DNA from: Galerina marginata
Taxonomy: Eukaryota > Basidiomycota > Agaricomycetes > Agaricales > Galerinaceae
Assembly (NCBI GenBank): GCA_023014335.1
Contig: JAECYW010000017.1
Coordinates: 1 to 64,000 of the forward strand
DNA length: 64,000 nt
Direction of reading: 5' to 3'
A program made the translations under genes and the position numbers. Positions 1,716 through 55,439 of the stretch are shown here, one piece after another. Each line of letters starts with the position of its first letter. The first letter of the stretch is position 1. The notes below the pieces were generated by a model. It did no database searches and had not been told where the DNA came from. It saw nothing but the letters and a program-made list of their open reading frames with translations.

Positions 1716-2334
1716 TCACGGATAGTAATTTTTTTGTTGATATCGCCCTTCGAGAACAGCATTCATGCATATAATCTCCTGCTCCTTCTTGTCTTCATAA
1801 ACATCGTTATCGGCACAGTCAAAGTCAATAATGAAAACCTGATGGTCGGAGTTGACGAGAAGGTTATCAGCCCGAATGTCATGATGCCTGATGCCGGCGC
1901 GGTGTATGCTATTCAAAGCCCGTAAAAAGGAGTCCCTGAAAAAGCGAAGCTTATTCAGAAACAGCAAATGAGAGTAAATGATTAAAAAAACAATTGTACT
2001 TCTCTTCACTGGTAGTCACCACCTGGACAGCGTCTCCGCTGCGCTCCATCTCACGACGGCGAAGTGACACACCTCCATCCGACATAAGTATAGCCAAAGC
2101 CGAGGATTCCCGGTCTTTAAAAAGGCCATGCACAGTAACAATACCCTCGACACCTTCCTGCTTTGAGAGATGCTGGTAAATCTGGAATTCGTGATACAAT
2201 TTTTCCATTTGTTCGAAAGAAAACGCGAGCTTGAAAATAAGGTTCTGCGTTAAGATTTCACCCGATTCCAGAACAACCTCCAACGTAGCAGGATGAACAA
2301 CGCCAACAGCACCGCGGCCGAGCAGCCATAGCAG
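1716..2334 (-). pseudogene. Kinase-like gene, catalytic C-terminal exons (split gene, part 3)
   Basis: Exons 2334-2000 and 1935-1716 on the minus strand, joined by a phase-2 GT-AG intron. They encode a kinase fold: glycine loop LGRGAVGVV, a beta3-like lysine (IFKLAF), an alphaC-like glutamate (YHEFQIY), a catalytic loop HHDIRADN that keeps the Asp and Asn, and DFD in place of DFG. The protein stops about 35 residues after DFD, as in short basidiomycete kinase-like proteins. The key catalytic residues are present, so the ancestral protein may have been an active atypical kinase. The upstream exon lies at 17785, on the far side of mobile element 1. Rejoining across one copy of the target duplication gives a 50-nt intron and a phase-0 junction, so the element appears to sit in that intron. 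Because the gene is split by about 15 kb, and a fragment further upstream has a frameshift, I call it a pseudogene. Confidence 0.7.
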
Positions 2335-2353
2335 CTATAATTATATATGATGT

Positions 2354-2361
2354 ATAGTTAG
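2354..2361. repeat. Left target-site duplication of element 1
   Basis: ATAGTTAG here and ATAGTTAC at 17754-17761 directly flank the outermost inverted-repeat bases (TCTGCTAAC at left, GTTAGCAGA at right). Seven of eight bases match. An 8-bp duplication is, as I recall, what Zisupton-type members of the KDZ superfamily make; that point is from memory. Confidence 0.75.
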
Positions 2362-3590
2362 TCTGCTAACTAAAGTCTGATATCCCTGGCGCATTTTTGC
2401 CAAGTTGGCAAACTTGCCAACAGCACAGATCTTAGCCATATATGCATGCCGGGGGTGCCGGGGACTGGGTATTTGATTGCTACTGGGGGCGGGACACTGT
2501 AAACACACGTCAACAATGGCTAAAGGGCATTCCGAGGTGCCCGAGACTGTAATTTGGGTCGCGCTCGCTGTTGGGGGCGCATTTGGGCGCGGAAAAAAGA
2601 TATTCAGGGTCTAATAATATTTTTACATGCGCCCCGACCCTTTGCGCACCCCTCCGGGGGCGGGAATGGATGGATGGGCGGGGATGCCTTTGGATGACGC
2701 GGCTATATTGGGCGGGCAAGCTGTCAAACAGCTGTCAACAATGCCAGGAACACTATTCCGGGGTGCCCGACGTGGTATTTTGGCTCGCGCTCGACGTGGG
2801 GCGCGTATTTCGCCGCGGAAAAAATTGCAATAGGGTAATATATTTATTTGCTACCTAATGGCGCCCTTTGCGCGCCTCACGGGGGGCGGGAGAGGATGGA
2901 TTGGCGCGGATGCCTTTGGATGACGTTCCCAATATAGAATGCGCCCATCAAATGACACCGTGGAAGTCAATCTAAGAATAGATTGCAACCATCAAATGTC
3001 GTTCCGAATCCGAAATCAGGTACGTGCCTGTATTCTTATCTTTTAGATTAGATATTGTCGTTCCGATCCGAAATCAGGTATGTGCCTGTATTCTTATCTT
3101 TTAGATTAGATATCTTCAATTACCCAGGCCCTCGCATTGCGGCACGGTTGATATATTAATAGAATGGCTCATTTTTGCGTGCCTCCGCTCCTCCCGTTGG
3201 ATATTATTGAATTAAATAAGATTTATGTAAACTACAGGCATATAGTAACCTAATAGCACCCTTTTTGTGCTTGAGAACGGATGGGATGGGGATGGATGGC
3301 TTACTGCTCATCTGGATGACCTTCTCACCACCTTCCGCATTCGTCGTGATGCGAGCAGGGCACGATTTAAAAATAGATTCGTACCATTTTTGCTTACCGC
3401 CTGCTATTCCTGCTGGTTCCGCTTGAAATGGAGTACGTATATGTAAAGTACTTGTATTTAGAATGCTATTGATACTTTTTTCGTGCTTCAAATCGACCGG
3501 GAAGAGGGTGGATGGCTTGCTTTCATTTTGGATGACGTTCGGCATTAGTTCCGCATTCGGATTCACTTCCGAAATGTTTGATTGCCCCAC
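2362..3590 (+). repeat. Left terminal inverted repeat of element 1
   Basis: Inverted homologue of about 16600-17753. The first bases, TCTGCTAACTAAAGTCTG, are followed by a palindromic stretch (TTGGCAAACTTGCCAA near 2405) that could be a transposase binding site. The middle is GC-rich with repeated GGATGGATGG and TTTGGATGACG motifs. The inner part contains roughly 240-bp units. Compared with the right copy, the left one has an extra tandem duplication near 3001-3110. The inner limit is approximate because similarity fades. Confidence 0.85.
3001..3112. repeat. Tandem duplication inside the left TIR
   Basis: A block of about 55 bp that starts at GTTCCGA(A)TCCGAAATCAGG and ends at TTTTAGATTAGATAT occurs twice head to tail here. 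The right TIR has only one copy (near 17055-17125). The duplication must therefore have arisen after the two TIRs became distinct, or been lost from the right one. Confidence 0.8.
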
Positions 3591-3700
3591 CGCAAAAGCA
3601 AGTTCAGTACTGTTTTTTGTGCTGCCCGCCTCTCCTCTTGCCCGTACACTAAACGAAGTAAATAGACATAAATTATTTTTCATTCTGAACAATTTGATAC
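3204..3700 (-). repeat. Two subterminal repeat units at the inner end of the left TIR
   Basis: Read on the minus strand, two units of about 240 bp share the order GCGGAA...GTCATCC...AAGCCATCCA...TTCCC...TTGAAGCACRAAAAAG. The right TIR contains one full and one partial unit (16600-16960). Both TIRs of element 2 contain related units. The 162-codon open frame across them exists because the unit length preserves frame; I do not regard it as a gene. Confidence 0.65.
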
Positions 3701-3868
3701 CAGATTTATGCCTTAAAGATCAGTTCCCCTGATATCCCTTACATATTCTTTGCCAAACTTCGGTCAACTCAAGTTACGGGGTCGTGATTCAATTGGGAGC
3801 TACGTATAAGACAAAATGAAACAGAATGAATCAGTAAGCTGCGAGCTGGCAAGAGCTTCAATAGGTAC

Positions 3869-6800
3869 CTATGAATCCTCGAGGAGTTCCTCTTCGTCCA
3901 TGCAATCCTCTGCACCCCCATCCTGGCCCTCCTCTTCATTCTCGTCGTCCTCGTCGTCCTCGTCCTCGTCATTGTCGGCGTCCTCGTCGTTGCTCAAAGA
4001 TTCAGCGAGCGGGGCCTTCCAGAGCTCGCGGAAATGCTGAGCAAGGTCGGCCTGAAGACCCGCCTGCGCATTCGCGAACGCTTCAATCCCCTCGGCCAAT
4101 TCCTTGGTCAAACCCGTCCTCGAATCCTTTCTGTCCTTCCACCAATTCGACTTCCACTCGAGGAATTCGAGAACTCGCCTCATCTCTTCTTTAAGGAGCA
4201 TGACCTCCTCCGTTGACCTCATTGACCTTGCTCTACTCTTGGCCCACTCCACTCGTAGGATATCGTCCTTGTCATCTTCGTTACTGCTCGTGGACGGGCT
4301 AGCAGTTAACCATATCCAAGATAAGGTTCGTCGAGTCTCGCCAGTCCCGTCCCGCTTGGTTCGAGCTTCGTTGTACAGCTCAAAATCGTCGTCGTCGGCT
4401 TCAATTTCATCGGCGTCGTTTTCGTTGTCATCTAGAGGTGGGGGTTGACGGGAATTCTGGCCACCGCCTGCCAACGGGCTGTCCTCCCAAACCCCTTTGC
4501 GACCAGTGCGAGGACGCAGACGGTTCGGGTCCTGGTATCCCCGAATGTCCTTATCCTCCAGCACGCGAAGGGTCGTCTCCCATGAACCAGGTCCTGCCAG
4601 CGCCAACTTCGCTCGCCGAGCTGCTCGATATTTGTCCGCTGCGTTACGAGCCTTCATGTGAACCTTGTCGATAACCGTCCTAGACCGAGTCCCATCGCGC
4701 TGGCCTCGAATATTCTTATTCTTGAAGTCCACCATGCGACTCTTGATCTTCAGGACCTGCCGGATTTTGTGCAGGGCATCCGCACATTGAGCATCACGGA
4801 GCCTTTCTTCCATCTTCGCAAGACCCTTAAAACAAATTGAAGCTCGGAGGCCAGCTGGAAGGCGGGAGGGGAGCCAAACGTCGGCATCCTCTGGGTAATT
4901 GGACTTCTGGGTGTTCTGGGAAGGAGTGGCTTTGCGAGCCAAGTCTGTTTGATACTGGAGGAGCCCCGGTAGGTAGATAGGTACCAGATGCTCCCATGCT
5001 CGCAGGCGAACATGTAAGTTGTTTCTTTCGTCGGTAATGCTTCGATCTTGGGCCCATGTCCCACTGAACTTCGACGCGAGTACTTTCGCTAAGCGTTTAA
5101 TACGACGCCTGCATCTACATCAGTGCCTTGAGGAAGTAAGAATGGGTGGTGCGACTTACTGAGTTTCCTCCAGATCCAGACCCATCTGAATAAAGGCTGC
5201 CGCGGACGTCGAGTGGAGTGATACCCCACCCTCTGCGAGCCTATGCTCCTCCTCATCAGCAAGCTCTTTCTTCACTTGTGCTTCGGAAATATCTGAGAAA
5301 TGGCATAAGTGATGGTTCTAAATTAGTGACGGCTTAACGTACAAGCTTCCTCTAAATGGTACGGGTTTTTCTTCTTCTTGGGGAAAGAATCGGCCTCCCA
5401 ATCAACGCACATCCCTTCCCACTTCTTGACGAGCTCAGGGTCCAATGATTCGGTAAGTCCTCGGTGACCTTCCTGTTGTAGGTTTCGCTGGGCGACGGCC
5501 GCCTTGTACTTTCGTAACAGCGTTGAGCCCAGGCCGATATACTTCAGCCAATTCCAAAACCCGAAATGGTCGTCGAGCACGTCGTGGCGAGATCCAGGCC
5601 CCATTGTTTTCGTCGAGTTGCCCAGGGCATTATGGGGCGACCAAACACGTTCGGGGCACTCACAGTCCGAATGCCCACATCCTGGGATGAAGTTGAGCGA
5701 ATAAACTTGATGCCCTTTCGCTTCGTGCATGGGCTCATGAAGTTTCGGGATTGCAGGTACCAAAGTTATGCCCTCACGTAACTTGATTTCTTCGGGCCAG
5801 TGTCCCATCCGTTTGAACAGATTAATGAACCATTGGCAAGCGATATCGTAGCTGATAAGGATGAGGGATATGTAGACGAAGCGGAGAACAAGCGCGAATA
5901 GATAATCCATATTCGCGTATCTGCAAGCTTCATAAGTTTCGCGACGTCAGTCATTGCAAAAGATACGTACCTTTCCCCCTTCTGCAAGTTTCCTACACCG
6001 CACGGAAAGATCATCTCGGAGCGACCACAGACTGCGAGATTCACGCCGGTGTACCTCTGGCCTCTGGAGTATCTCGTATGCGCCTGCGCAAGCGCTTGCA
6101 AGCCCACGCAAGTGCTAATCTGCACAAAAGTCAGTAAAGAGGAGGGGCGTTGAGATTGAAGACTTACATCTTCATCACTTGCTCTGCTTAAAGCATATTC
6201 TTCATAGCCCTTCCTTGGCATCATATATGCCCAACCAGTTCCCAGCCCCGGATCCTGCGAGTAGTTGGAAACGAGTTGGTTTTTGAGGCGAAAATTCGCG
6301 TCCATGCAGATGAAGACCATGTAAAGGAACCTTTGAAGCTTTAGTTCAGATAGTATGACAAAAAGCGAACGGAAACACTCACTTTGCACCCTCAGGAGCG
6401 CTTTCCCAGTCTACGGGCAGGTTGATGCCTGGGCGAGGGCAGGACGGGCACAAAATGGCGAGCTCTCCAAGCTTCGTTCCGTGAACTCCCGAAGCATCAT
6501 TAGCCCTTCCTGCACGCTTGAGCAACTGGAGGTGGCGCCATTGCAAATTCATTCGCATAAGTGCACGGTAGCGCGACTTCGGAACATCCAAGCCAGTGTT
6601 GCAGGTGGATTTCTCCAACGCCCGGTAGAAGTCGTACGTAGATGCTTTTGTCGTCAGGGCGAGAAGGTGCAGGTGTTCGAGAAGTTCGAAGGTCGCACAG
6701 GTTTTCGCAGTGATCTCGGATGCGGGGTACAGTCGTCGGCGGAGCAACTGCAGGTGCTGGGGGATAGCCTTCTCGCAGCCGCAGTAGCGAATGTCGACTT

Positions 6801-7650
6801 CGTGGATTCCATTGGTGTGCAGAACCAACAAATTTGCATGGCAGGGCACGGGATTTGGGCAGTACATGCCCCCGTGGTTGAGCTGGAGACGGAGGCCTAG
6901 GGATTTGAGGGTAACTTTGACAAAATGAGACCCTGTCCATTTCTAGATAAGTAAGAATTAGTAACAGCCTAATAAGAATAATGTTTCAATTACCTTGATG
7001 ACATGAAATGGGTGCATTCGGTGTCTCCTCAGACAGCACGAGCTGCAGGTGAGGTCGGGAAGGAAGCACTGCTCGCAGCGGTACTCCGGAAAACCTGGCT
7101 GTTCCGCATTGCGCGAGATGCAGTCTGGGCACTCCTTAGCGAACCGAAAGTCTGCACGCCCAGCCCATCGAATAAGCTCATCCAAGAATTCCTCTCGGTG
7201 GAGGTCCATCCAAACAACGTTTGGACGCCGCTATGGAAGAAATACGAGAAAATCATTAAAAAACATGACACGTACGGAATAAACTGCAAAAATACTCACC
7301 GAAACTTTGCTTTTTTTCTTTACTTCGTCGGCAACTGAAGGCGGCTCCTCCATAACGTCGGCCGCCAACGCCGCGTCGTACAGTTCTCCCGAAGGATCCA
7401 GAGCATATTCGGTGCTATCAGGAGGGGCCCAGGAGGTGAGCTTCTTCCAAGTCTTCAGCGTTGACTGAACCGCTCGCTGAAGGAAGGTGGTGCGGGGAAC
7501 GTTGCCGACTATTTTCACCGTCCCTTCGGTGGCATGGACGATATCAAAGTCGGAGGCACTGGGAACCGAGTCGCGCCAAGCCGTTTGTAAAGTGGGATGA
7601 TGGCTCGACAACCCGGTACGTTGACGCTTGGTGGGTCGGCCAGCTGCCAT
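3869..7650 (-). CDS. KDZ-superfamily transposase with CxC zinc cluster
   Basis: Eight exons (7650-7300, 7230-6994, 6942-6383, 6330-6168, 6119-5971, 5920-5343, 5292-5160, 5108-3869) join in matching phases to give 1136 aa without a stop. Residues about 118-200 form a cysteine/histidine cluster (CPDC, CEQC, CSSC, HRMHPFH) of the CxC2 type found before KDZ transposase domains. The RNase H-like core follows: D393 in FICMDANF, D512 in SYDIACQW, and E577 in CPERVW are the likely catalytic triad. Also typical are GNLQKGERY and SRHDVLDDHFGFWNW. A long helical C-terminal region and an extremely acidic tail (Asp/Glu from about residue 1100) complete it. It starts at MAAGRPTKRQR, a nuclear-type basic N-terminus. 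It is divergent to the TET/JBP gene across 392 bp. The length and intact frames suggest a functional copy. Confidence 0.92.
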
Positions 7651-8042
7651 GAAGTAGGAGGAGGAGGAGCAATTGGCGGAAAGCCAACGGCCCGGTGGTT
7701 TGTTGAGAAAGATACGTGTGAAGTTGATGCGGATGGGGAGTCGTGGGAGTGTTAGATTATCGCTCCTCCTCCCATTATCCCTCACCTCAACCCCCCTCGC
7801 GCGGTGACCAGCACAGCAAGCACTCCGGAGTTCTCCCTCACTGGAAAGTCATCTCTAGGTAAGTTTTTCAGCTTTCATTCCTTTTTTTCTCCATACCTTC
7901 ATTGGGTACCCGAGAATCGTCAAGAGAGCCAAGCAACGGCCAGGAATCTTCGCGCCCGGGGATACACTGCTGTGAACTTACTCTCAGAACGCGCTCTTCT
8001 AGGGCACCCCTTCTTTCTCATTTTCGAACCTCGACAATCACT
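7651..8042. promoter_or_regulatory. Shared promoter region of transposase and TET/JBP genes
   Basis: The 392 bp between the divergent start codons are rich in C/T tracts on the plus strand and contain no other supportable gene. The two genes could be co-regulated from here. A possible non-coding first exon ending at the donor near 7858 (TCTAG|GTAAGT) lies inside this interval. No specific binding site was identified. Confidence 0.4.
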
Positions 8043-9713
8043 ATGGGACTAACAAACCTTACCCCGCTCCCTAATAGTTTGACAGATGCTTTTATACCCA
8101 CACCCGGCCTCCCTCGCGCTGCAGGTAAGGCCCCACAGCATCTCGAACCGTCAATGATAACTTATTGCACAACATACGCGCGAATTTAGCCCCTCGCAGA
8201 TACCTGGAACGGTGAACACGTGACCGCGAACACCTCGTTTGACCTTGAGAAGTTGCTGCAAGCTTCGATCGACCGCGAAGACGAGCCAGCCAACCCCACC
8301 AGCGATCCTGAAAATATGTTTAGCATGTCGCCACTCACCTCGCCCGAGTCTACCCCCCCGTCCTCACCTCTTCTATCGCCTACGAAACCCCTTGAACTTC
8401 TCCCTTTCGACGACGACCTAAACGACTCCGACTCGGTTGGTTCATCGTCAAACAAGCCTCGAAAAAAGTACAAGGATCGAAAGACGCGTCGCAAGGCCAA
8501 CGCCTATGCCACTCGTCGGAAGAAAAGGGGGCGGGAAAACGAAGTTTACGGACACCACCGTCCTCGAGACGCAGTGAAGAGCTACATGAACAATTCGCAG
8601 GCTATCGTCTGCGACATCGTCCTCGAAAACTCAAGGGTCACCAGTACCGGCTTCACTGGGTTGGACAACAAAGCCCGCCCCCGCGATGTTTTCCGTTTGG
8701 ATGAGCTGGTGGGCGAGCAGTCGGAGCATAAAATGAGGCTTGTTAGGTGGAACGGGCGGTGAGTCCTCCAGCAACACTAATTTCATTCGAGGCTAACGGG
8801 GCACTACAGCGACGCCATACCAATCTGCGACAGCAAGCGACGCGTTCACGCCGTACTCGCTGGCCAACCCAACGAACCCGAATGGGATTCACTGGCCAAC
8901 CAGGCAGCCCAGGCCCTCGAGGAGCGTCGCTGTCGAGTCCGCGTACCCCAAAGCAAGCTCATACACCGGCGTGGAACTTTCGTCGCCCTATCCAGTGGCG
9001 TCTCACACGGCCAAGGGCAAACCGCACCCGGTAACCTAGCCCATAAGGGGTCCAACGCCCGCGTCGTGCAGGAGCTCAACCATATGGAATCTTTCAAGAG
9101 GCTGGCGGGTTTTTCATCTTGTAAGTTGTTTTTACTCCTATTGACTGCAAGCTAACTCTAAAAAATACAAGCCGTCATGGCCAGTTGGGCCCCAGCACTC
9201 TACGACCACTACGTTACGGACCTAGGCAAGCTGTTCCACGAAGACCCATCGCTCAAACGGAATTTTCCATCCAGCGTGTTCGCCGCCGCCACCTATAACT
9301 TCGGCCCCTCCACAGTGTGTTTCAAACATATCGACTTCGCTAACCTTCCTTTTGGCTGGTGCTCCGTCACCGCCCTTGGCTCGTTCGATCCGACGAAAGG
9401 CGGCCACCTAATCCTATGGGACTGCGGACTCGTTATAGAATTCCCGCCCGGCTCTACCATCCTACTCCCTTCAGCAATCATTGCCCACTCAAACGTCGCA
9501 ATCTCCGAACATGAAAAGCGCTATTCGTTTGCTCAGTACAGCGCCGGCGCCTTATTTCGATGGGTCGCAAACGGTAACAAGCTGGCCACCGTTTACAACG
9601 CAACCTTATCAGAGGAACAGCGGCGGGAGTTGAAGGCGAAGAATAGGACACGATTTAAGCTGGGGCTGTCCCTCTTCCCGGTACTGAAGAAGGAAGGGCA
9701 GGAAGTTAACTAG
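8043..9713 (+). CDS. TET/JBP-family 2-oxoglutarate/Fe(II) dioxygenase, transposon-borne
   Basis: Exons 8043-8124, 8200-8758, 8810-9120 and 9172-9713 join in phase to give about 497 aa. The family oxidises 5-methylcytosine or thymine in DNA using Fe(II), oxygen and 2-oxoglutarate. Residues about 75-115 are strongly basic (RRKANAYATRRKKRGRE), probably a nuclear and DNA-contact segment. The middle has the block GVSHGQGQTAPGNLAHKGSNA, typical of the basidiomycete group. The double-stranded beta-helix carries H370 and D372 (FKHIDF), the distal H423 (IIAHSN), and R434 or R447 (KRYSFAQY, LFRWV) for co-substrate binding. All expected ligands are present. The start at 8043 is the first ATG in frame; an upstream exon is possible. 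It shares its promoter with the transposase. Substrate specificity is not visible. Confidence 0.88.
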
Positions 9714-10344
9714 TTTATTTTACATGCCTCGAAAATGTACTAAATTGCCTTCAATCGTATTTACTTGTTTTTTGGCCATCCTGACAGTGCTGAGAGACAA
9801 GCGTAGTTGGAATCTGCAAGTGAGGGGTGCGTTTCGTTTGTGCGGTAAGGCCGTGGTGATTTACGGTACCCACCAAAACTTGGCGAAATAAAAAGACAAT
9901 TAACTTGATGAATATATGCAATAGTTTCATTAATAGCCCCCCATAGTCATAGGCCATACAACCACTTGCTTTCTAGATACTTGCTAGACCACAGTAACCC
10001 TACTGAGTGGAGGACGGAGCAACGGTACATTGAGAAACGAAATTGTTCAAGATTCAATGAGAACAATGGCTTGATACTTTGCCAAATGGTGAACGTGGGT
10101 CCAACAAAAACTGCCCTAACAAAAAATGTAGCTACGTTATTCAACACACTTTTTGCACCTTCAAAATGTTAACTGCAGTGACTTTCAGGTTATAATCGCG
10201 TTTGTAAGTTCAAGGAGTGGTGATTTCGGGCGCGCGACCTTCGATAAATATAGATTCAAAGTTGCTGCTTTCGGAGATTAGCACTTGATCCCACCTACCT
10301 TGCCCTTTGCTCTTCCTCGACGCAGCCCACCTCTTGCCCTTTTC
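9714..10344. other. Spacer within element 1
   Basis: About 630 bp between the stop of the TET/JBP gene and the start of the small basic gene. It is A/T-rich and holds no frame with start and splice support. It presumably contains the terminator of the first gene and the promoter of the next, but no motif stands out. Confidence 0.4.
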
Positions 10345-10854
10345 ATGATGGCAACAAAAATGTCGGGTGACCAGGCGCGAAAGAGGAAACGCGAATATTA
10401 TGCCAGGTATGTTATTTACATCTATGCGTTTAATTCCGGGTCTGACCATCCATTGACCGAAATTTCGTATTCTAACAGAAATATAAATCGAGAGCGCGAG
10501 AGCGCTCGTATACGGGCACAAAGGTAAGCGAATTGTCTGGAAATAAATTCTCAAATACTAATAAGACCTTGTAGGAAAAAAGAACGGATGTTGTTGGAAG
10601 ATGAAGAGACTCAAAAGCTAAGGAAGGAGCGTCATCGACTGACTCAAGCAAAATACCGAGAATCCAATCGCCTTAAGTTGCGGGTGGATGCATGGCAATA
10701 CAGGTATGCTTGGTTTTCAGTCCTTTAGATCATACATTGACATATTTCGCCATGTAGAGCGAGGGTCAAACACGCAAAACAAAAATTGCGGGATGACGAG
10801 GAGTACGACGCTCTCATGAGTGCGGGGGACGTTAGCATGGACAGATCTAATTGA
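10345..10854 (+). CDS. Small basic coiled-coil protein (bZIP-like basic segment)
   Basis: Four exons (10345-10406, 10479-10523, 10575-10703, 10758-10854) give a 110-aa protein. All three introns fall at phase 2 in an AG|R arginine codon, so exons look like modular units that each end in Tyr/Gln-Arg. The product is about 40% charged, beginning with QARKRKREYY and continuing with RERESARIRAQRKKER and ERHRLTQAKYRESNRLKLR. The last resembles the basic region of a bZIP protein, but no regular leucine zipper follows. It ends with a short acidic tail (DDEEYDALMSAGD). It is inside element 1, between the dioxygenase and the next cargo gene. A DNA-binding or chromatin-tethering role is an inference only; I do not recognise the family. 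Confidence 0.65.
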
Positions 10855-11004
10855 GGAATAGTGTCCAGCGAAAGTGCCTGGTAGTTGCCTTAGTTCATTA
10901 AGTTCATTTAGAGAGTTCGTTTGTAATTTTTTCCTTAAAGTGCCTTGGTGCAAAATTTAAGCCGATCAAATGATATATTGAAAGGGTTTATAATGACTAC
11001 GAAG

Positions 11005-11118
11005 TCCAGCGAGTAGCTAAGCATAAAAGGTACGTATGGAGGGCATAGTTATGGGCATAATCATAGGTAGCTAAGCACAAAAAGGTACGGATGTAGGGGC
11101 GTAGGCTTGGGCATAATT
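11005..11118. repeat. Imperfect 57-bp tandem repeat
   Basis: GTAGCTAAGCATAAAAGGTACG near 11012 recurs as GTAGCTAAGCACAAAAAGGTACG near 11069, each followed by a similar tail that ends in GGGCATAAT. Two diverged copies lie between the convergent 3' ends of the small basic gene and the next gene. Confidence 0.65.
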
Positions 11119-11208
11119 GAGCATATGGGTAAACAGAAAAAGGGGCAGGGAAGGAGGTATCTACTTTATCAGAAATGAGCGATCCCTGTGGCACGACGAA
11201 GAAAAATT

Positions 11209-12842
11209 TCAGGCTGATGTGGTCGAGCTGTCGGCGTCCGTTTCGGTCAGATAGTCGAGATCGTCGAGATCCGCAGTCCCAATGTCGGAGAAGTTACTCT
11301 CCATTTCAGTTTCGGTTGCAGACGAGTAGCTGGGAAACGGCGTAGACATCACGCCGACTGAGCGGTATGCGGTGAAGCGGGTCAGAGCAGGCGGTGCTGC
11401 AGTGCTTGTAGAGGCGCTAGCAATCGGGGATGAGAGTGAGCTACCAGACTGGGCCTGTGTCGAGCTCGGGGTTGACGCTGCAGCCTGCGAAGGTCCCTCG
11501 GTAGGGAAGCAAGCCTCAATAATGCGAAGGCGTCGGTCCCGAGCTTCTGGACTGGTGGCTGAATGCTGCCTGGCTTTTTTTGCCATGGGGCCTTCGGTGG
11601 ATGGGGTGGGAGATGGCTCGAATAGGGGGCTAAACCGCTTCTTGCTGTTGTGTGGCGGAGTCGGCGGAATGCCTTCTGGGGAGGACAGTGGGGACGGCAC
11701 CGGAAATGGGCGAATGGCAGGGCGAGGAGTCCCATACGACGGGATATGCGCCAACTCCTCAGGTTCGGAGTCGGTGTGAACGATAACAGTGCCAACGAAG
11801 ACCTTCTTTGGGGATTTTTCGACATCGGAATCTTCGGCAAGAACTTTCCCGGCGCTGGTATCGGAGCTCGAGGGATCGAGGTACGCAGGAAGAGCAGATT
11901 TCGCCTTATTTGCGGGGGTAGGGGAGGCTAAGGAAGGCACGGGCGAGTTTACAGGCTTGGGAGGCGGGGGTAGCAAGTAGCTTCGGGGTACCAAAGCTCC
12001 GGACTGGTTGGCTTTTGGGACCGGTGCCGAATGCTTCAAGGGAGCAGGCTTTGGCGCCGCCGCCTTTGGAGCAGTGGACTTGGAGGCCGCCATGGAGGCC
12101 ACTGGCTTTCTGGTGACGGGCTTAGGGGCTGTTTGTTTCGGGGTGCTAGGCGTCGGGGTGATGTGCTGTATGGCAGGGATGGGCGTCGTTGGGAGCGAAA
12201 TAGGGTGACCGAACGCGCCAGGAGGAACTGGAGCAGGGGTCGGGGCGTTCGAGGGTATAACGAAAGGGTTGAGGCCCGTTCCAGGGGAAGGAGTTGGCTG
12301 ACGGTCTTCGGCAGGAACCAGTCGGACGAGGCCGAGGTTGTAGTAAGCGCGGTAAAGCCCACGCGCTTCATACCAATTAGAAAATGGATGTACGTGCGAC
12401 TCCACATCATCACGACCGGACATGGGGCTAGCAGAAATCAAGGGTTTGCATGAGTATAAATTTTCTAGATAAAATCGGGGAACTTACTTTACGCCATGTG
12501 CGACGCCAATCGGAAGTCCCACAGTGATGGCGAAAAACGAACCATCAAGGGGGTCTGGGGCCACGATCATGGTGTCTGGAACTGGTATGCCCACGAGCGA
12601 GAGGTTGGGCTGGCCTGGCACTTCCTCAGCATCATCAACGACGATGTTAGGCCCTAGAAAATGGATATTGGCATCAAAAGCCAACGAGTAGATACAAGAA
12701 AATGCATACCCTGAACATGAACGCCCCCAGGGGCAGCGTTCGCATCAAGAGGAGCAGGCAGGGCGTCGTTTGCAAGAGCTGGGTTAACGTTGGGAACATT
12801 CGGAGCGGGGTTGGCAAATTGAGTGGTAGAGGGGTTTGGCAT
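11209..12842 (-). CDS. Cargo protein with possible RNase H1 N-terminal-like domain and Pro-rich tail
   Basis: Exons 12842-12710, 12653-12488 and 12427-11209 join in phase to give 505 aa. Residues about 75-135 read FFAITVGLPIGVAHGV ... HVHPFSNWYEARGLYR, which resembles the RNase H1 N-terminal / caulimovirus VI-type fold (F/YYAVxxGxxxGIY ... VxGFxxAxYKxFxTxEEA) that binds RNA-DNA hybrids. The match is by pattern only. The remaining 370 residues are low-complexity Pro, Ser, Thr and Ala with several basic patches (KKRF, KKARQ) and end in an acidic Asp/Glu run (DLDDLDYLTETDADSS). The frame is uninterrupted, so the gene is probably real. It is the only minus-strand cargo besides the transposase in element 1. 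Confidence 0.6.
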
Positions 12843-13082
12843 TGTAGATTGAGTTGATGAGTTTGATCGTGTTGAGGGTGCGGCTTTTAAGCAAAGAAAA
12901 ATGCGAAAATATCGGAGGGTCTTCGCGCGTTGCTGGCCCTTCTGAGTGAACTGCAGGATCGTTGGCCTATCACAGAGGCCGACGTCAGGAAAATGAATGA
13001 ACAAATGAGAAAATCGAAACCTGAGGAGCGCCACGGCGGCGCTGGTCGCACGAGAATCGCTTCTTGGTAACTGTATGGTCAT

Positions 13083-13445
13083 TGACCCTGTTGAATTTGC
13101 TGTAAAAAAGTGTTAGGCCGATATCGAGATTGATTCCAGGAAAAAAAACACATACCGAATCCAGTCTTTGGGTTCCGTTGGTAAAGTTTGAATCGCATTT
13201 CTAAGGGCGTGGCGTCGGCCGGGGCTGAAAAACTGTCAAAAGAAAATTCAAGCAACAATCGAGATTGAATACTTGTATGATTGGGGGAGAGCTGGAGAAA
13301 CCTTGACCAAATTAATCCTTTCTTTGGGTTCTGTTGGCCAGGTTTCAATCGCATTCGCTTGTAAGGGTGTGGCGTCACTGGGTTGAAAAGATTGTCAGGC
13401 AGTTATCGAGATTGATTAGCACGAAATGGGCATACGATTAGGGCA
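13083..13445. repeat. Diverged tandem repeat upstream of the minus-strand cargo gene
   Basis: Two units of about 170 bp share TTTGGGTTCYGTTGGYMA, TTTGAATCGCATTT or TTTCAATCGCATTC, and GGTGTGGCGTC in the same order. A third, more diverged partial unit lies at 13400-13500. The block may belong to the promoter of the gene that starts at 12842. Confidence 0.6.
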
Positions 13446-13946
13446 GAGGCGCCTTGGCCGAGTTCAAATCCAAACGGGGATGGTGATGCGTTCGCTGGAA
13501 TGCCGTTGTATTAAACTCCTGGAAGGATTTCGCGTGAAGTTTCGACCAGCCGCCTCACAGCCTTGTACCGAGTTCTCGTCCGTAACTGCGTTTTCAACAC
13601 CTGGACCTATAGACTTTCTGTAAGTTTTCGATTTGCGCGTCGCAAGAATATATATCCTTACCTTCTCTTCGAATAGAGCCCAACTACACCGGTCCTGAAG
13701 TACACGTTGGGTATTAAGTACTCGAGGCTTCAATCAATCCTTCTAATTGAAGTATAGGTCAGTTTCCATGAGCCTTTCACTGATTTAAATTAACGGGACG
13801 TACCATTTCAATATCATCAGCTAGACAACACCGATCTTCGGTTTTTATTTATATTGCTTGTGGAATCTACAAGACACACTGTAAGCACTGGTCTCTGAAC
13901 AATCTAGTAGGGTGAGGTTACTGACCAAAACTCACAGATCGAAATT

Positions 13947-16364
13947 ATGGTCAATCCTGGGGCATTTCGAGGCGCTCGCAAGGAGTTTTTGATCAGCCAA
14001 AAAGAATTCTATAGCACGGCAGTCGTCGAAGGCCATGCTGCTGAGGCTGTGGCTCATGTTCAGCGAAGATATTTCAAACGTTTTCCAGTTGACCTACCGC
14101 ATGACGAGGAGCCAACAGCAGAGTATTTGGCAGGTGTTGACGACGACGCAATTGATCCCGATTATGAAGAGCCCAACGCAGAAAAGTTGTCGCCGGAGGA
14201 GTATGCTGAGGCGTTGACAAAGTTGGGAGCGAGGCAGAAGGTCCTTGACTTCCGCCGTGCCGTAAGTTGTGGTTTGTTTGATACAGTGGCCTCCAGCTGA
14301 TTTCCAATGCACAGCAAATTAAACGTTGGTTAGCGTATCAACACATGAAAGACCACGACCTCGATCCGACTGAGACTGGGGCTCATAACCCTTACCGACC
14401 TCTCCTCTTTAAACTCACTGGGTCCGGCGCGAAACCCCCACGACTCCAAAAACCCGTCAACTTGTGGCGAAAAACTCAAAAGGACCTGATTGAAACGACA
14501 CTCAAGAACCGTGCCGCGCTTTTAGGAACACAAAGAGCGGGTTTGGCTAAGCTTCGCGAGGAAATCGCGAGAGAGTTATTTGCGAAGCTCTGTCAGGAAG
14601 AGCAGGATTCCTGGAAGGCGAAGGTTGTAAAGGAGCACGAGGAAGCCACCGAGGCTTGGAAGCGTGAGGCGGTGGCACCATGTTCAACCGATCCCGCTGA
14701 TCGCCAAAGGTCAGCATTGAAATTTTTCTCATGTTTTTCGTTTTTTCCTTACCTCCCAGTTTTTATACAGGTGTATAATGGGTTTGGTGCGATTCGCGCA
14801 ACCAATCCTCGACCTTATTTCTGAGGCTACCGGTTGGAAAGCAACGTTGATTGCTGGTGGGCCCGAGCCTGCTCAGGACGGGCGTCTTAACATTCTCAGG
14901 TATTTTTATCTATTACTTGGTTTGCCCTATTCCTAACCACTCCTCTGCAGCATTCATTCCGGCACTACTACAGGCGACGTGCCAATGAACTTTGGTCGCG
15001 CCGAACGCCTACGCTATAAATCCCACATTGTCCCTATTTTCGGGACCTTTCTCCAGCAGTGCTACAGTACGTTTCGTCTGCATTTTATCTCTTCGGATCC
15101 TGACTGGAATGGCCTATCAGCTCCGGAGGACTGTCGTTCTCGGGCTCTCAACAAGGAGGACGGTTTTATGTCAATGGATACGCTCGACCTCGACCCGGAC
15201 GACGTCAGCTTCGATCCAGTGAATCAACCAACTCCGATCTCTCCCTCAAACTCTACTGGGCCCGTGCCTGGACTCGCAGTTGCATCAGCACCTACCCGGT
15301 CCACTGCCACTGCAGCTACACCCGCAAACTCTTCCGTGCTCGTACCTTCACTCGTACCTCCTTCCCTTCCAGTGCCGCCCCGTGCTAGCTCTGTACCACC
15401 TCCTTCGGCGCCTCCTTCGCAGCCTTGTTCACCGCTGCGTGGCGGTTCACTACCCCCTTCGCCCCTTCGTTCGCCCCCTCGCTCTCCAACCACAGTACAA
15501 CCATTCGTCGCCCTGCAAAATCCGCGTTCGCAACCCCCATCGCCAATGCTCGGAACCCCAGTCCTTACCGAGCAGTGCCTCAACACAGCCTCGAGGCAGA
15601 AGAGGGGTCGCGAGGAATCTGCAGAGCCCCCATCAGCCGCCTCCTCCGCACCAGTTCCCGACATACGTTCAAGCAAACGGCGTCGAGGTGAAAAAGGTGC
15701 TGTTGGGGCGGGGTCGCAGGTAGCAACGTCCACGAAGGCAACGACTCGCTCAGCTAGAAAACAGGCACCACCCAGGCGGAACAACGCGGGGGGCAATGCA
15801 TCCACCCTTACACCCACCCTAGTTTCGACACCTCCGCCCTCTGTGCCGACGCCGACCCCTTCCGCGACCCATGATGATGCACCGCCGTGGTTCGGACTCG
15901 CACTAGCCATGTTCCAACACGACGATGTCGGTAATAGCCAACGGTGGAGGGATTTGGTCAGCGCGTGGGTTGCCTTGGAGGTTCAGTCGGGCTACGAGGG
16001 GAAGGCGAGGTTGAAGTCCACCAATCGTCCAGCAGCTGTAGGTGAATGGATCCAGCGTGCTCAATCGTCGACGTGGCGCCCTACTATCACCAACGTCGAT
16101 CAGTATAAAGCCGGGTTCAACAAGTGGTGGACCGCTCTTCAGCCAGAATGGCGACTTTCGACAGACAAGAAGACCATCAAGGTGGAGGAGGTAGCTGGTG
16201 ACTGGGGGGTGATGAAACGGCCAGGGGTGAACGGCCTTGTCAGCGTTCTTGCGGCGTTGTTTTATTGGGGTTGTGCAGTGCAGGCTACGGAGGAGCGCCA
16301 GGGCGATTGGTTGGCAGCCGTTAATGATTGCCTGACTGCCTTTACTCACGCCGTATCGTCGTAA
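13947..16364 (+). CDS. KDZ-element cargo protein A, unknown function
   Basis: Five exons (13947-14261, 14315-14709, 14771-14899, 14951-15066, 15121-16364) give 732 aa. Exon 1 begins MVNPGAFRG and contains FKRFPVDLPHDEEPTAEY. Exon 2 has NPYRPLLFKLTG and a helical stretch ending ELFAKLCQEEQDSWKAK, faintly like an HMG-box helix. Exons 3-4 hold GWKATLIAGGPEP and GDVPMNFGRAERLR. A Pro/Ser-rich linker with a basic patch (SSKRRRGEKG) follows. The C-terminal domain contains WWTALQPEWR and NGLVSVLAALFYWG. Protein B in element 2 (20496-23042) has the same exon plan with identical phases and nearly identical exon lengths, and both ends are conserved while the linker is not. That pattern argues for selection on the protein. 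The family is common in Agaricomycetes, but I know no function. Confidence 0.8.
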
Positions 16365-16599
16365 TGTAACTATTCCTTGTTGTATATATTTTTCTGCTTT
16401 TTATACTATTTTTTGTGCTGCTATCTGGCTCTGATTTAAGTTTTATTAAGCCTGCCTCCTCATCGTGAAATTAAGTAGGTCGGATGGGTATCAAATTGTT
16501 CAATTTTGTTAGTAATTCAAGCCTAACTACTTGGTTCAATGCGCATACTGCAGAGGAGCCACGCGACACGAAAATCACTGCTGCATCCACGATTTCGGC

Positions 16600-17753
16600 T
16601 TTGATCCAAATGCGGAAGTGAGGCTGGGCGTCATCCAAACCCATTGTGTGCCATCCATCCCCTTCCCGGTCGATTTGAAGCATGAAAAAAGTATCAATAG
16701 AATTGGAAATACCGGTACTTTACATATACGTTATACGTACTTTATTTCGAGCAGAATCAACGGGACGGGCAAGCGGTGAGCAAGAATGGGACGAATCTAT
16801 TTTTAAATCACGCCCTGCTCGCATCACGACGAATGCGGAAGGTGGTGAGAAGGTCATCCGGATGAGCTGCAAGCCATCCATCCTCTTCCCATCCGTTCTC
16901 AAGCAAAAAAAGGGTGCCATTGAGTTCTAAAGTGCTGTAGTTTACATATATGCTATATTAATTTCCAATATACAACGGGAGGAGCGGGGGTGCGCGAAAA
17001 TGAACCATTTCTATTAATATATCAACCGTGCCGCAATGCGAGGGCCTGGGTAATTGAGGATATCTAATCTAAAAGATAAGAATACAGGCACGTACCTGAT
17101 TTCGGATTCGGAACGACATTTGATGGTTGCAATCTATTCTTAGATTGACTTCCACGGTGTCATTTGATGGGCGCATTCTATATTGGGAACGTCATCCAAA
17201 GGCATCCGCGCCAATCCATCCTCTCCCGCCCCCCGTGAGGCGCGCAAAGGGCGCCATTAGGTAGCAAATAAATATATTACCCTATTGCAATTTTTTCCGC
17301 GGCGAAATACGCGCCCCACGTCGAGCGCGAGCCAAAATACCACGTCGGGCACCCCGGAATAGTGTTCCTGGCATTGTTGACAGCTGTTTGACAGCTTGCC
17401 CGCCCAATATAGCCGCGTCATCCAAAGGCATCCCCGCCCATCCATCCATTCCCGCCCCCGGAGGTGTGCGCAAAGGGTCGGGGCGCATGTAAAAATATTA
17501 TTAGACCCTGAATATTTTTTTTCCGCGCCCAAATGCGCCCCCAACAGCGAGCGCGACCCAAATTACAGTCTCGGGCACCTCGGAATGCCCTCTGGGCATT
17601 GTTGACATGTGTTTACAGTGTCCCGCCCCCAGTAGCAATCAAATACCCAGTCCCCGGCACCCCCGGCATGCATATATGAGTAAGATCTGTGCTGTTGGCA
17701 AGTTTGCCAACTTGGCAAAAATGCGCCAGGGATATCAGACTTTAGTTAGCAGA
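16600..17753 (-). repeat. Right terminal inverted repeat of element 1
   Basis: Inverted copy of 2362-3590, ending GTTAGCAGA at 17753. It lacks the extra 55-bp duplication of the left copy and has one full plus one partial inner subterminal unit. Single-base differences from the left copy are scattered (for example GGTGCCC region and TCTTACTC/TCTTAGCC near the end). Confidence 0.85.
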
Positions 17754-17761
17754 ATAGTTAC
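17754..17761. repeat. Right target-site duplication of element 1
   Basis: ATAGTTAC, matching ATAGTTAG at 2354-2361 in seven of eight positions. Confidence 0.75.
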
Positions 17762-17784
17762 ATATGATATATGGTACTGGCAAC

Positions 17785-19143
17785 CATAGGTGGGCCGAGT
17801 GGTTCTTTTAGGGTGAGGGAGAAATATTCGTGGGCACGATATTTGGCTTTCACCTTGGGATTATCCACCTCATTCATTAGACCAGGAGCACACAATGGCA
17901 CAACGCGGGTGAACGAGGTCGGAACATATGAGCAAAACGCCCCGTATTCCAAGCTAACCAGCGCTAGCTGGCGTTTCGCCAGCTCTTCAGAGATCTTCAG
18001 AATCTGCAATTTGAGAATGGCATTGGGGCAAGGAGAGGTTACATACTTGATGAGGCTCATTTGGTTTAGATTGGGGGTTTTTCTTCCGCCGCTTGGAATC
18101 CGATATTTCTTTTGCTTCTAGGTGTTCTGAGGAGCGCTTTTGACCTACGTTTTGTGCATTGACACGTTCTTGACGTTCCAATGCATCCTTAACAATCATG
18201 ATGTGGAGACCAAGATGAAGCTTCCGATAATGAGGCTCTTGGATGTTGACTGTGTCGATTAGTCCAGACAGATATAGGGTTTGTGATTCGCGGTGGCGAA
18301 TGCCGATCCGCTCATAGCGTCCACAATTCAGGATGATGAATGTGGAATCGTGCATGGCAGCATTTGCCCACGCCTGCTGGCAATATCAACCAACGGCCGA
18401 TAATGTTATTGGCATCAGTGCACGCACCGATTGAAGGAAGTGTCGAAAATCTGGTCGATATCGATTCCTCTTCATAGTGAATTTTGTGGGCGTGACCAAC
18501 TTTGCCTTCACGTTGCGCTTTGTAGGTGGTAACGGCTGGCGTGGTTTTGCTTTTTTCGGGGCCTTCAGAGATAGAGACGACAGGGCGTATTTGGCATCTG
18601 GAGGAGGCCGCTTGTGCGACATGGTTTTGGCTCCCATTGTGTGAGAATATTGCCATATAAATGCTGTGTCCTCCTTCATCGTTTGAAACATACCCATAGC
18701 GGCGTCTGTCATTGCGAACATATGCCACGTCGCCAATCTAGAAGATTTTCTTGACAAGTCCAGGACCTTAGCCTTGGTCGCGTCGGGAAGACAACTTTTA
18801 AGGTCTTCGTGAAGAGAAAGGGATCCATCCTGCCGTCTTACCGACACTTCAAGCCAAGATTGGGTGGTGAAATCGAAATGATTGCCTGTGGGTCTCTCGG
18901 TGAACCTGAAGACCGACTTCCATGTGTCGCATTGCGGGTGAAGGCAGACCTTGGATGCAAAAGCATGGCAAATGCGTGCTATGTATTCACCGTAATAGAA
19001 GCTGACTGAATGGGCGTCGCGAAACTCCTTTGATCTCGTGTGGCGGGAAAAAACATAACCATTGTTGGATAACTTGTGACCATCCTTTAGGAAGCCTCGG
19101 ATCGCGTTATCGCATGCCTTGGAACAGCCATGTCAGCTATATT
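17785..19143 (-). pseudogene. Kinase-like gene, middle exons (split gene, part 2)
   Basis: Minus-strand exons from the edge of element 2 (about 19130) to 18428, 18373-18047 and 18003-17785 join in phase 0. They contain a conserved N-terminal region (HSVSFYYGEYIARICHAF, FRFTERPTGNHF, WHMFAMTDAAMGMF), then HDSTFIILNCGRYERIGIRHR, a lysine/arginine-rich linker (KRSSEHLEAKEISDSKRRKK), and finally SLTLKEPLGPPM just before the kinase glycine loop encoded at 2334. The last exon ends at a GTTGCC donor; with element 1 removed the acceptor at 2335 is 50 nt away. Toward element 2 the frame meets a stop next to the insertion (TGA near 19138), so the join to part 1 is not clean. The three parts together would make a protein of roughly 750 aa. 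Confidence 0.65.
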
Positions 19144-19151
19144 TATATATG
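19144..19151. repeat. Possible left target duplication of element 2
   Basis: TATATATG here and CATACATG at 24066-24073 flank the inverted ends. They match at six of eight positions, and both mismatches are T versus C, as expected for an older, decayed 8-bp duplication. Confidence 0.4.
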
Positions 19152-20000
19152 AAACACTGCCTTTGGCCAGTGAGACGTTATACATCCAGACTGTGTTTTT
19201 GCAGTCTGTGTTTTTGCAGTCCCTATGCTTATAGTAGGGGGTAGGCGTAAAAGCGTTGCTCGGGCTTCGTCGGGGTGGGCGGGGGGGCTGAAAAAGCGCC
19301 AGCCCCCATCAATTATGATGTAGATGCCATCTGGGATGTTTTTATGGGCGTCGGGATAGCGGGAGGTAGCTAAAACGAGTTCGACAACGGATACCATGAG
19401 TCCGACCACCCCGTTTTGGAAATGACGCGCGCGCCTCTGGCACCGCTGCGATATTTTTAGCTTGATGACATCAAATCACATTTTCCCCTCGATATTTATA
19501 GCTCTATGACATCAGATCACATTTCGGGTGCGTACCGGGTGCCTGTGGCTCTGCTCGGGTCCTCCCGCAGCAGCTCTGCTGTACGGCTTGGGGCCTTTGT
19601 GAGCGCGCTGCTGGGTACCCCTTCAGGAATTTCATAGAATAAACTACATATATGTACTCTAGCACTAAATACAATTCTAATGGTGCCCTTAAGTTTCCCG
19701 AAATCGCATGGAAAGGGGGTGGATTCGCCTTTGCATGTTCGGATGACTCTTAGATGCACCTTCCGCATTTGGTAGGCGGTAGAAAACCACCTTGCGACGC
19801 TTTTGTGCGCGCTGCCGGGCGTCCCATTGGGGGATTCATATAATAAACTACATTACTGTGCTCCTCTAATCTATAAGAATCCATTTGTGGCCTTCAATAA
19901 TTAGAAATTGCAGCGGGATAGGATGGATTGCCATCTGGAAGTTCGGATGACGTTGACTTCAACATTCCGCGAACTTCCTAATCCGGCCAAAGTGGTTGAT
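19152..20000 (+). repeat. Left TIR of element 2
   Basis: Inverted homologue of about 23210-24065. The outer 500 bp is nearly identical, with short direct repeats (GTGTTTTTGCAGTC twice at 19192-19222) and a GC-rich hairpin-prone stretch. The inner 350 bp consists of two diverged units of about 220 bp. Confidence 0.8.
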
Positions 20001-20495
20001 TTTACTTGTAGCTCTTCTAAGAGAATAAAAGCGGGTTAATAAAATTAAGAATAAAGCAAGTCAATAATGTCAATACATGTAGGAGTAGAAACATCACTAA
20101 AAACTGGCCGAAACTACACAAAAAGCACTGTACAGACAATATGAAAACAAAGCGGCGGGGGCAAATTGGCCACAAATCGTTGGGTGTCGCAAAACATGGG
20201 CTACGCGACGGAGATGTCGCCTTGTGGTGCCAAACGTTGGCCACGAATTGTCTTCGTCATCGTGCAGCACGAGGTGGGCTACGGGTCGTCATCGTCGTCG
20301 GAAATCGGCCTATACCGTTAGTTCGAAGCTTCCACCTGAGACAACATACTTACTTTTGGCCATAGCGCTTGTTTTCAACGCCCCCTCAATATCTTGTTCA
20401 ATTGTCTAAGTCATTCATTGGACATATCATCGGTGAGCTTGAGTTTGCACAGATGAGCTTAGGTGATACGAAAGGGCTGATTTGACATACCTCAG

Positions 20496-23042: not shown

Positions 23043-23209
23043 ATACCACGTCGATCCATTCGTTGTCCCGGCCCCTTTTATTTTCTACCCTCTTGCCATG
23101 ATGTCTTGATTCCCTTTCTTATGTATGCCTGATGTTAAATAATTACCTGAAATATACCTCTTATTTGTCTCCTTTTATTATATAGCCTTCTATGCAATTG
23201 TGGTCTGAA

Positions 23210-24065
23210 CAGCCAGAGATAGGTTTCAACCACTTGTCCAAATGCGGAAGGTGAACTTCAGAGAGTCATCCGAAAATGCAAGGGCCAATCCACCCCCTTC
23301 CCATACGATTTCAGGGGATTGAAGCACAACATTGGGTTTTTATTGACTATTAGAGTACATTCATGTAACTTATTCTATGAATTAGTAAAGGGACGTCCCA
23401 GCAGCGCGCTCGGAAACGTCGTGAGGTGGTTTTCAACCACTTGCCAAATGCGGACAAGTACATCTGAGCGTCATCTGAACCTGCAACAACCAATCCATCC
23501 ACTTCCCATGCGAATCCTGACGATTTAAGGACATATTTAGATTCAAATTGATTATTAGAGTACATACATGCAATAAATTACGGAAAAGTAGCAGAGGGAC
23601 GCTCAACAGCGCGCTCACAAAGGCCCCAAGCCGTACAGCAGAGCTGCTGCGGGAGGACCCGAGCAGAGCCACAGGCACCCGGTACGCACCCGAAATGTGA
23701 TCTGATGTCATAGAGCTATAAATATCGAGGGGAAAATGTGATTTGATGTGATCAAGCTAAAAATATCGCAGCGGTGCCAGAGGCGCGCGCGTCATTTCCA
23801 AAACGGGGTGGTCGGACTCATGGTATCCGTTGTCGAACTCGTTTTAGCTACCTCCCGCTATCCCGACGCCCGTAAAAACATCCCAGATGGCATCTACATC
23901 ATAATTGATGGGGGCTGGCGCTTTTTCAGCCCCCCCGCCCACCCCGACGAAGCCCGAGCAACGCTTTTACGCCTACCCCCTACTATAAGCATAGGGACTG
24001 CAAAAACACAGACTGCAAAAACACAGTCTGGATGTATAACGTCTCACTGGCCAAAGGCAGTGTCT
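23210..24065 (-). repeat. Right TIR of element 2
   Basis: Inverted copy of 19152-20000. The two inner units (about 23210-23430 and 23430-23640) are more diverged from the left copy than the outer 500 bp is, which suggests that the outer part is kept alike by selection, gene conversion or repeated mobilisation. Confidence 0.8.
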
Positions 24066-24073
24066 CATACATG
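24066..24073. repeat. Possible right target duplication of element 2
   Basis: CATACATG, six of eight positions matching TATATATG at 19144-19151. Confidence 0.4.
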
Positions 24074-24087
24074 ACTGTAGCTACTAC

Positions 24088-24620
24088 AGGTGCTTGGAAA
24101 GTGACTGCGTAATTGATGGCAGATAGATCACGTTCTGTAGAACAAGGCTGGGCATGATGTGCCGGTCATAGAAGATTTGAGGAGGCTTTGGAGATATTGG
24201 CACCCCTTCTAGACGCTCCAAGTCGAGGATAATCCCAGGATCGTAGTTTGCTTCAAGAATCTCCTTTAGACGAGGGTAAAACGGGTCAGATATTGGTAGC
24301 ATCAGGGGACAACTTCAACAGGTAGCTGGAGAGCTTTGTGCCAGTCTTGACAGAGGAACAAAGGGCGAGGTTGAATTGCGTCCTCAGTCCTGCGACCTTG
24401 TATATGCTCTCACAATCAGCGTTCCGGCCCGGTATTCTACTTAAAGTTGAACATGAAGCATTTACTTAGTACCTTCACACTCGAGACCTTCCAAGTAAAC
24501 AGGCAGATCGTGCAGGCGAATTGAAACAAGGTAAAATACTCTAATTTGCTTGTCTGCCCATCTTTGATTAGCATCGTAATCAGCAGCCGAGTTTCGAGAT
24601 TCTATTGCCAGCGGAATTCC
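24088..24620 (-). pseudogene. Kinase-like gene, N-terminal exons (split gene, part 1), frameshifted
   Basis: Exons about 24620-24467 and 24437-24088 on the minus strand. The first encodes DYDANQRWADKQIRVFYLV; the second begins IPGRNADCESIYK and includes LCSSVKTGTKLSSYLLKLSP. Near 24288 one extra base shifts the frame from SPDATNI* into DPFYPRLKEILEANYDPG, which then stays open to a GTAGTA donor at 24087, 22 bp from element 2. The order and strand match parts 2 and 3, but the exact junction to part 2 cannot be read because a stop lies next to the insertion. The extra base indicates that the gene is no longer functional. Confidence 0.5.
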
Positions 24621-52457: not shown

Positions 52458-53186
52458 TTGGTGGGTGGATTGGTAAGATGTGGTCAGAAATTTTAACCGC
52501 TCTTTATGAAGGAGGTATCTAGGATTCGAGAACCTATGAGCTGCTTTCCTCAATTCCGGCGTGCAGTTGAGTTGACAGGCAGGCACCGCAACCCATTGCC
52601 TTCGGAATTATTCCTTCTTGGTATAATATGATAGGGAACTTCGAGAATAGCCTTGGTGTCAAAGTAGTCATCCCAATGGAAGACGATCAGACAAGTAAAC
52701 TTGTGTTACTTATTGTGGACAGATGAATGAGTGGAGGAGAGAAAAGTGAAAGGCGTTTCGGTGGCAGGACTGATTATAATGATTACCCGGTAGTAGCCGG
52801 GCGATCAGTCTGCTGTTCAAACCTGCAGTTTCTGCATAACTTTGACAGCACCTACTTATACCAAGACAAGCTGTCGGAACACAGATCAAGCCACCATCGA
52901 CGTCTATTGGGGCGTCTACCCAAATTTTGGTCACTGAAATGTGTTGAAAAATGAGATACATATTCTGTTACATAAGTAAGCAAACAGGAAAAGTGAAAAA
53001 AATACGAAAGCAACATATGTCATGGTGCGATGGAAAATCTCAGACTGACTTAGAACAAGTCATTTGTAAAGGAAGAAGAAATTTGATGCAAAAGCAGCAT
53101 TGACGATCAGTCGCTGCCAGAAGTTGAGACGATATCAACGTCAGTCTTTTGAGCGTCTTGCGGCGGGACATATTTCAGTCTACTGC

Positions 53187-55400: not shown

Positions 55401-55439
55401 TTGGTTGGTAGATGAGGTATGGGCAGAGACATCAGTTAC

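Follow-up and report, generated by a model that had tools for sequence, protein, structure and literature searches.

The first 64,000 nucleotides of contig JAECYW010000017.1 of Galerina marginata (GenBank assembly GCA_023014335.1), hereafter the window, carry at positions 2323-17792 a DNA transposon with a KDZ transposase gene, a dioxygenase gene and three further genes, g3, g4 and g5. Taken as a whole, the region is best explained as a complete, recently inserted Kyakuja-like KDZ element whose other genes have proposed helper roles, and we put the probability of this reading at about 0.85. It is directly supported by the ends, the target site duplication (TSD), an empty site, open genes, low ratios of nonsynonymous to synonymous substitution (dN/dS) and the gene order in the genome. 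Elements of this kind are already known; the dioxygenase is unusual, and a single genome here shows all parts as well as the empty landing site.

Borders, target site and empty site

An earlier note, made from the letters of the window alone, had placed a complete, apparently intact KDZ element at 2362..17753 with an 8-bp target duplication. The element is indeed complete, but its true ends lie 39 bp beyond those positions on each side. In related loci of the same genome (69.3 Mb in 43 contigs, the source of all comparative counts given here), conservation continues outside 2362 and 17753 and stops sharply at 5'-CAGCC and 5'-CACCT. The inverted-repeat alignment in a self-comparison of the window also extends beyond the first-given ends. 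At the revised ends, GGCCGAG stands exactly on both flanks. The borders are as follows.

2316..2322, no strand: left TSD copy GGCCGAG, 7 bp, present as one copy at the empty site on contig C7
2323-17792: whole element, 15,470 bp, CA..TG termini, from the outer-flank alignment of related loci
2323..2361, plus strand: left terminus 5'-CAGCCATAGCAGC..., a conserved 'CAGCC-type' end
2362..3575, plus strand: long subterminal inverted repeat, left arm, with an outer block of ~98% and an inner block of ~84.5%
16592..17753, minus strand: long subterminal inverted repeat, right arm
17754..17792, minus strand: right terminus, reading inward 5'-CACCTATGG..., a conserved 'CACCT-type' end
17793..17799, no strand: right TSD copy GGCCGAG, 7 bp

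The inverted repeats comprised 713 bp at 98.0% and 530 bp at 84.5% identity in the self-comparison. They begin directly inside the outermost 39 bp, which are alike only in part when inverted. With the left arm as query, 42 matches were obtained in the genome, and 40 of 78 candidates were scored, among which the top non-self identity was 83%. From 24 of 30 left-arm loci we built 12 end pairs, the border motif itself being used to locate the ends, while 6 loci stayed unpaired. Nine of the 12 pairs had an exact 7-bp TSD at the revised ends. Two of the remaining three were neighbouring opposite copies whose flanks matched crosswise. The 8-mers at the first-given ends agreed at 7 of 8 bases in the window and at 1-2 of 8 in each of the 11 remaining pairs. 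The 8-bp TSD was rejected, as it lies inside the element, is unsupported by related pairs and restores no host frame.

The host frame provided a further test of the borders.

1951..18117, minus strand: kinase-like host open frame, split by the element; removing 2323-17799 restores an open frame of 229 codons

Removal of the element together with one GGCCGAG restored this frame, whereas removal at the first-given ends failed to do so. The 134 residues spanning the restored junction were a 100% match to C7:1975-2376. The start of C7 (C7:1-24000) was collinear with C9:1-44454, C9 being the contig whose first 64 kb form the window; the alignment fell into three pieces, with identities of 99.6%, 98.5% and 99.6%. 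There were 37 substitutions in 24,050 aligned columns; the remaining differences were mostly single-base insertions or deletions, with 26 of 60 gap events in a homopolymer context. The only large differences were the two insertions in the window, this element and the smaller one described below, and C7 held a single 7-bp target copy at each. The empty C7 site with its single GGCCGAG thus fixes the element border.

No match on C7 was found for C9 at 62.4 kb, and no second copy of C9 at 900 kb was found anywhere in the genome. Considering these missing counterparts, the shared end must be a chromosome end that was duplicated or else a haplotype that is separated locally, and a reading of C7 and C9 as whole haplotypes was unsupported. 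The same observations, with a shared end of at least 24 kb whose origin is uncertain, leave some room for C7 not being the pre-insertion state, both elements having been precisely lost there or removed by gene conversion. This would require two footprint-free losses, each taking away exactly one copy of the TSD, and a footprint is what cut-and-paste transposons usually leave behind; we regard it as very improbable. Unless such a footprint-free loss from C7 occurred, both insertions are younger than a split marked by ~0.15% substitution. The element was inserted recently and precisely, within a kinase-like gene and close to the end of a contig.

Gene content, partner genes and family placement

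The five genes that the earlier note had read all spliced without internal stops and with GT..AG introns. The set of genes and the style of their introns suggest a mushroom-forming basidiomycete.

3869..7650, minus strand: KDZ transposase with a CxC2 zinc cluster, 1136 amino acids (aa), 8 exons (7650-7300, 7230-6994, 6942-6383, 6330-6168, 6119-5971, 5920-5343, 5292-5160, 5108-3869)
8043..9713, plus strand: 2-oxoglutarate and Fe(II)-dependent (2OG-Fe(II)) dioxygenase, a distant TET/JBP relative, with H370, D372, H423 and R434, 497 aa, 4 exons (8043-8124, 8200-8758, 8810-9120, 9172-9713)
10345..10854, plus strand: g3, small basic protein, 110 aa (exons 10345-10406, 10479-10523, 10575-10703, 10758-10854)
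11209..12842, minus strand: g4, low-complexity protein, 505 aa (exons 12842-12710, 12653-12488, 12427-11209)
13947..16364, plus strand: g5, 750 aa (exons 13947-14261, 14315-14709, 14771-14899, 14951-16364)

A 15,455-bp relative at C18:28182-43636, with the TSD GATTCTT, contains all five genes in identical order. Between the window and this relative, approximate dN/dS was 0.06 for the transposase, 0.11 for the dioxygenase, 0.08 for g3, 0.19 for g4 and 0.15 for g5, values that cover alignable codons only and were obtained with saturated dS. All five genes are open and look constrained. The element had an observed/expected CpG ratio of 1.00, its flanks one of 0.87-0.98 and the second element one of 0.99; the absence of CpG depletion would fit youth or a lack of methylation and decides nothing. 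A near-identical copy was not found in the genome, as one might expect if the element were a relic, dead or non-autonomous, with genes that are open by chance. Five open genes with low dN/dS, an exact TSD and an empty site differing by so few substitutions argue against a relic, which we consider quite unlikely.

The transposase was recognized clearly. The KDZ domain (PF18758) scored 187.7 bits against a cut-off of 26.6 (E=3e-55) and was preceded by the CxC2 cluster (PF18803) with 132.8 bits against a cut-off of 27 (E=6.8e-39). The triad D393, D512 and E577 was located in the spliced protein exactly where the earlier note had put it, and D393 is kept in the C18 relative (MDANF). Passages of a Pleurotus study (PMC7641404), in which K, D and Z are not separated, report CxC2 in front of KDZ in all intact KDZ elements. 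The combination of a CxC2-KDZ transposase, a 7-bp TSD and CA..TG ends fits a Kyakuja-like element. As described in the available portions of Kojima 2025 (PMC12730594), TET-bearing Kyakuja elements of Agaricomycetes likewise share a KDZ transposase, a dioxygenase gene, a 7-bp TSD and 5'-CA..TG-3' termini. According to the same portions, two Laccaria families of Kyakuja lack terminal inverted repeats (TIRs), whereas here inverted repeats of ~0.7 kb start 39 bp inside the ends and reach ~1.2 kb when the weaker inner block is counted. In addition, the dioxygenase here is neither of the CcTET-like (AG) type nor of the HxE (PE) type distinguished there.

KDZ1-KDZ3 of Cryptococcus also have KDZ transposases, in elements of ~9-11 kb whose insertions were caught in FRR1, but excerpts of that work (PMC12810828) give a CxC1 cluster in place of CxC2, TIRs that are 139-241 bp long, and TSDs of 8 bp for KDZ1 and 4-8 bp for KDZ2 and KDZ3, compared with 7 bp here. 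That text does not contain the word 'dioxygenase' (0 occurrences). A Marasmius genome paper states, in an excerpt, that its supplement characterises the TIR motifs for both KDZ and Plavaka elements (PMC8290104).

To place the remaining genes, we typed the partners of 93 KDZ loci, several of which are duplicates of each other, so that the counts are not independent. At 19 of the 93, g5 lay within 15 kb, and in 18 of these 19 it was upstream and divergent. A dioxygenase match stood between KDZ and g5 in 11 of the 18, and none was found in the other 7. Sixty-nine of the 93 loci were without dioxygenase, g3 or g5, some of them being fragments or other KDZ lineages. The spacing between KDZ and g3 was 4.2-5.9 kb in five loci with a dioxygenase between them and 1.5-3.6 kb in four g5 loci with g3 but no dioxygenase match; given this shorter spacing, the dioxygenase gene is probably truly missing there and not overlooked. 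Conversely, 21 of 31 g5 loci had a KDZ match within 18 kb. Chance association of g5 and KDZ had a P of ~7e-21, a crude value, as k was set by hand as 20 and the copies are related. Homologues of g3 occurred at a comparable position in relatives, and the only other locus found for g4 was that on C18.

From these gene-order counts, g3 and g5 are conserved partners of the transposase and not cargo. The dioxygenase is an optional component of KDZ-g5 elements, and g4 has the look of real cargo or of a gene that changes quickly. The earlier note had called g3, g4 and g5 cargo, a name that misleads in the case of g3 and g5. Exon 2 of g5 adopted an HMG-box-like fold in a predicted model. Pfam HMG_box matched 1 of 10 g5 members at E=1.6, below membership, and we filed g5 as putatively HMG-like and not as an HMG_box member. 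Iyer et al. 2014 (PNAS) reportedly described elements in which TET/JBP and KDZ genes are linked, with a divergent HMG domain often encoded alongside; this domain may be g5.

The dioxygenase and its candidate substrates

The ligands named in the earlier note, H370, D372 and H423, were confirmed at their positions in the spliced dioxygenase. Among 20 aligned family members of the genome, the HxD motif and the distal His were invariant, as was Cys381 (20/20 each), and R434 was present in 19. The assignment to TET/JBP was less direct than the note had assumed. Unlike the KDZ and CxC2 searches, which the note had proposed alongside it, the search with Pfam Tet_JBP gave no match to the window protein at E<=1. 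This profile weakly matched 9 of the 20 family members (best E 2.6e-5), and 2OG-FeII_Oxy_3 gave a still weaker match to 15 (best E 0.0036). A PDB search with the single sequence and with profiles did not find CcTet (7vpn, 8jkk). Direct assignment as TET therefore failed with Pfam (single sequence) and with PDB (single sequence and profiles). An AlphaFold model of the dioxygenase was set aside, as it covered exon 4 only and was poor, with a predicted local distance difference test score (pLDDT) of 57. Locus L103 gave no match, and locus L104 matched only the end of a g5.

Another gene of this genome, L009, matched CcTet at E ~1e-24, and L010 and L011 were 71% alike to L009. These three CcTET-like genes, on C3, C10 and C39, lie ~4 kb from other KDZ matches. 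Two distinct dioxygenase types thus seem to be KDZ-linked in one genome. When the window family was compared with the L009-L011 set by hhalign, the result was 42%, with E 2.6e-4 and a score of 30.7, against a maximum of 22.1 in 100 column shuffles. With an intermediate set of Tet_JBP-matching proteins, it was 94% with E 1.4e-7, exceeding all 100 column shuffles. As both links go beyond the shuffles, this profile-profile comparison shows the dioxygenase to be a remote TET/JBP relative, by kinship and not by membership.

Through L009-L011, the HxD motif and distal His of CcTET from Coprinopsis are in register with the window family, while no direct sequence or profile match between CcTET and the window dioxygenase was found. 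Asp337 of CcTET is reported to be essential for activity on 5-methylcytosine (5mC), and CcTET also acts on 6-methyladenine (6mA), both according to the accessible sections of Kojima 2025 (PMC12730594). At the position of Asp337 the window protein has Cys381 if aligned without gaps and Ser382 in the hhalign register, and Asp is absent from both. The claim of a cytosine-oxidising enzyme was consequently not established, the protein lying outside the CcTET-like type and without this Asp.

Two readings of its activity were weighed. As a true TET, the enzyme would oxidise 5mC in copies of the element that encodes it and in this way lift their silencing. This agrees with the conserved ligands and Arg, with the profile score against CcTET-like proteins, with 4 DNA-methylase matches in the genome and with oxidised methylcytosine mapped at transposable elements of Laccaria and Coprinopsis, as given in passages of PMC8889193. 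The failure to match CcTet in PDB or Tet_JBP in Pfam, the missing Asp and the 7 of 18 related KDZ-g5 loci without a dioxygenase match weigh on the other side, and we consider the reading plausible, at somewhat less than even odds. The enzyme may instead modify something other than 5mC (6mA, thymine, RNA or histone), for example by marking ends for the transposase. Its position outside the CcTET-like type, the invariant Cys381 and the 6mA activity of CcTET itself speak for such a substrate, but the TET/JBP enzymes characterised so far have mostly methylated pyrimidines as substrates, and we hold this reading tentatively. With similar reserve, it is conceivable that the protein represents an undescribed transposon-borne TET/JBP-like type, with HxD and an invariant Cys at the place of the CcTET Asp, which works with the HMG-like protein as an exchangeable part of KDZ-g5 elements that are otherwise conserved; its target may be a different base from 5mC.

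Related insertions, proposed mechanism and meaning

The window contains a second insertion with the same kind of termini.

19125-24092, plus strand: second element, 4,968 bp, TSD CTTGGAA at 19118-19124 and 24093-24099

It contains a g5 homologue from 20496 (partial gene model), none of the other four genes has a match in it, and it is absent from C7. It is a non-autonomous element in which the HMG-like gene has been kept. Farther along, window positions 50011-52470 and 52961-55413 form a direct repeat of ~2.46 kb with 85.7% identity.

Like ends were also observed on other contigs. Two opposite 5.35-kb copies (C5:1462292-1467642 and C5:1469179-1474529) have 7-bp flanks that match crosswise, as if the intervening stretch had been inverted. 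Two 5.3-kb elements with these ends (C5:1929639-1934980 and C5:1487550-1492861) split a dioxygenase gene and a KDZ gene, indicating from their position between the gene halves that the family inserts into genes of its own relatives. Larger elements with the same ends and exact 7-bp TSDs were found at C8:780753-795916 (15.2 kb), C23:3836124-3864653 and C1:4033324-4061720 (28.4-28.5 kb). Among the listed genome matches, none to KDZ, the dioxygenase or g5 fell inside them, and their end loci had no tblastn match to the five proteins. The C23 element holds a retro-like open frame of 1806 codons, and five open frames of the C8 and C23 elements had no Pfam match at E<=0.01. They were rejected as large cargo carriers for want of KDZ, dioxygenase and g5 and in view of the retro-like frame on C23, the C1 element being judged by match positions and ends.

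For the Kyakuja-like element itself, we infer an active transposase and cut-and-paste movement. The CxC2-KDZ transposase would recognise the conserved CA..TG ends, which are asymmetric, together with the long subterminal inverted repeats, and would integrate the element with a 7-bp stagger. The predicted HMG-box-like domain of g5 probably bends DNA and aids the pairing of ends ~15 kb apart, and g3 may serve as a small basic helper. The dioxygenase probably oxidises a DNA base, which would counter silencing of the element or mark it.

These results suggest that the transposase has its steady partner in the HMG-like g5 more than in the dioxygenase. The dioxygenase is unlike CcTet, the one fungal TET structure found in the PDB search, and lacks the Asp that CcTET needs for 5mC; thus, activity on 5mC is not to be assumed for it. 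The filled site on C9 and the empty site on C7 offer a natural comparison of the states before and after insertion; mapping 5mC and oxidised bases on both would test whether the enzyme acts on its own element.
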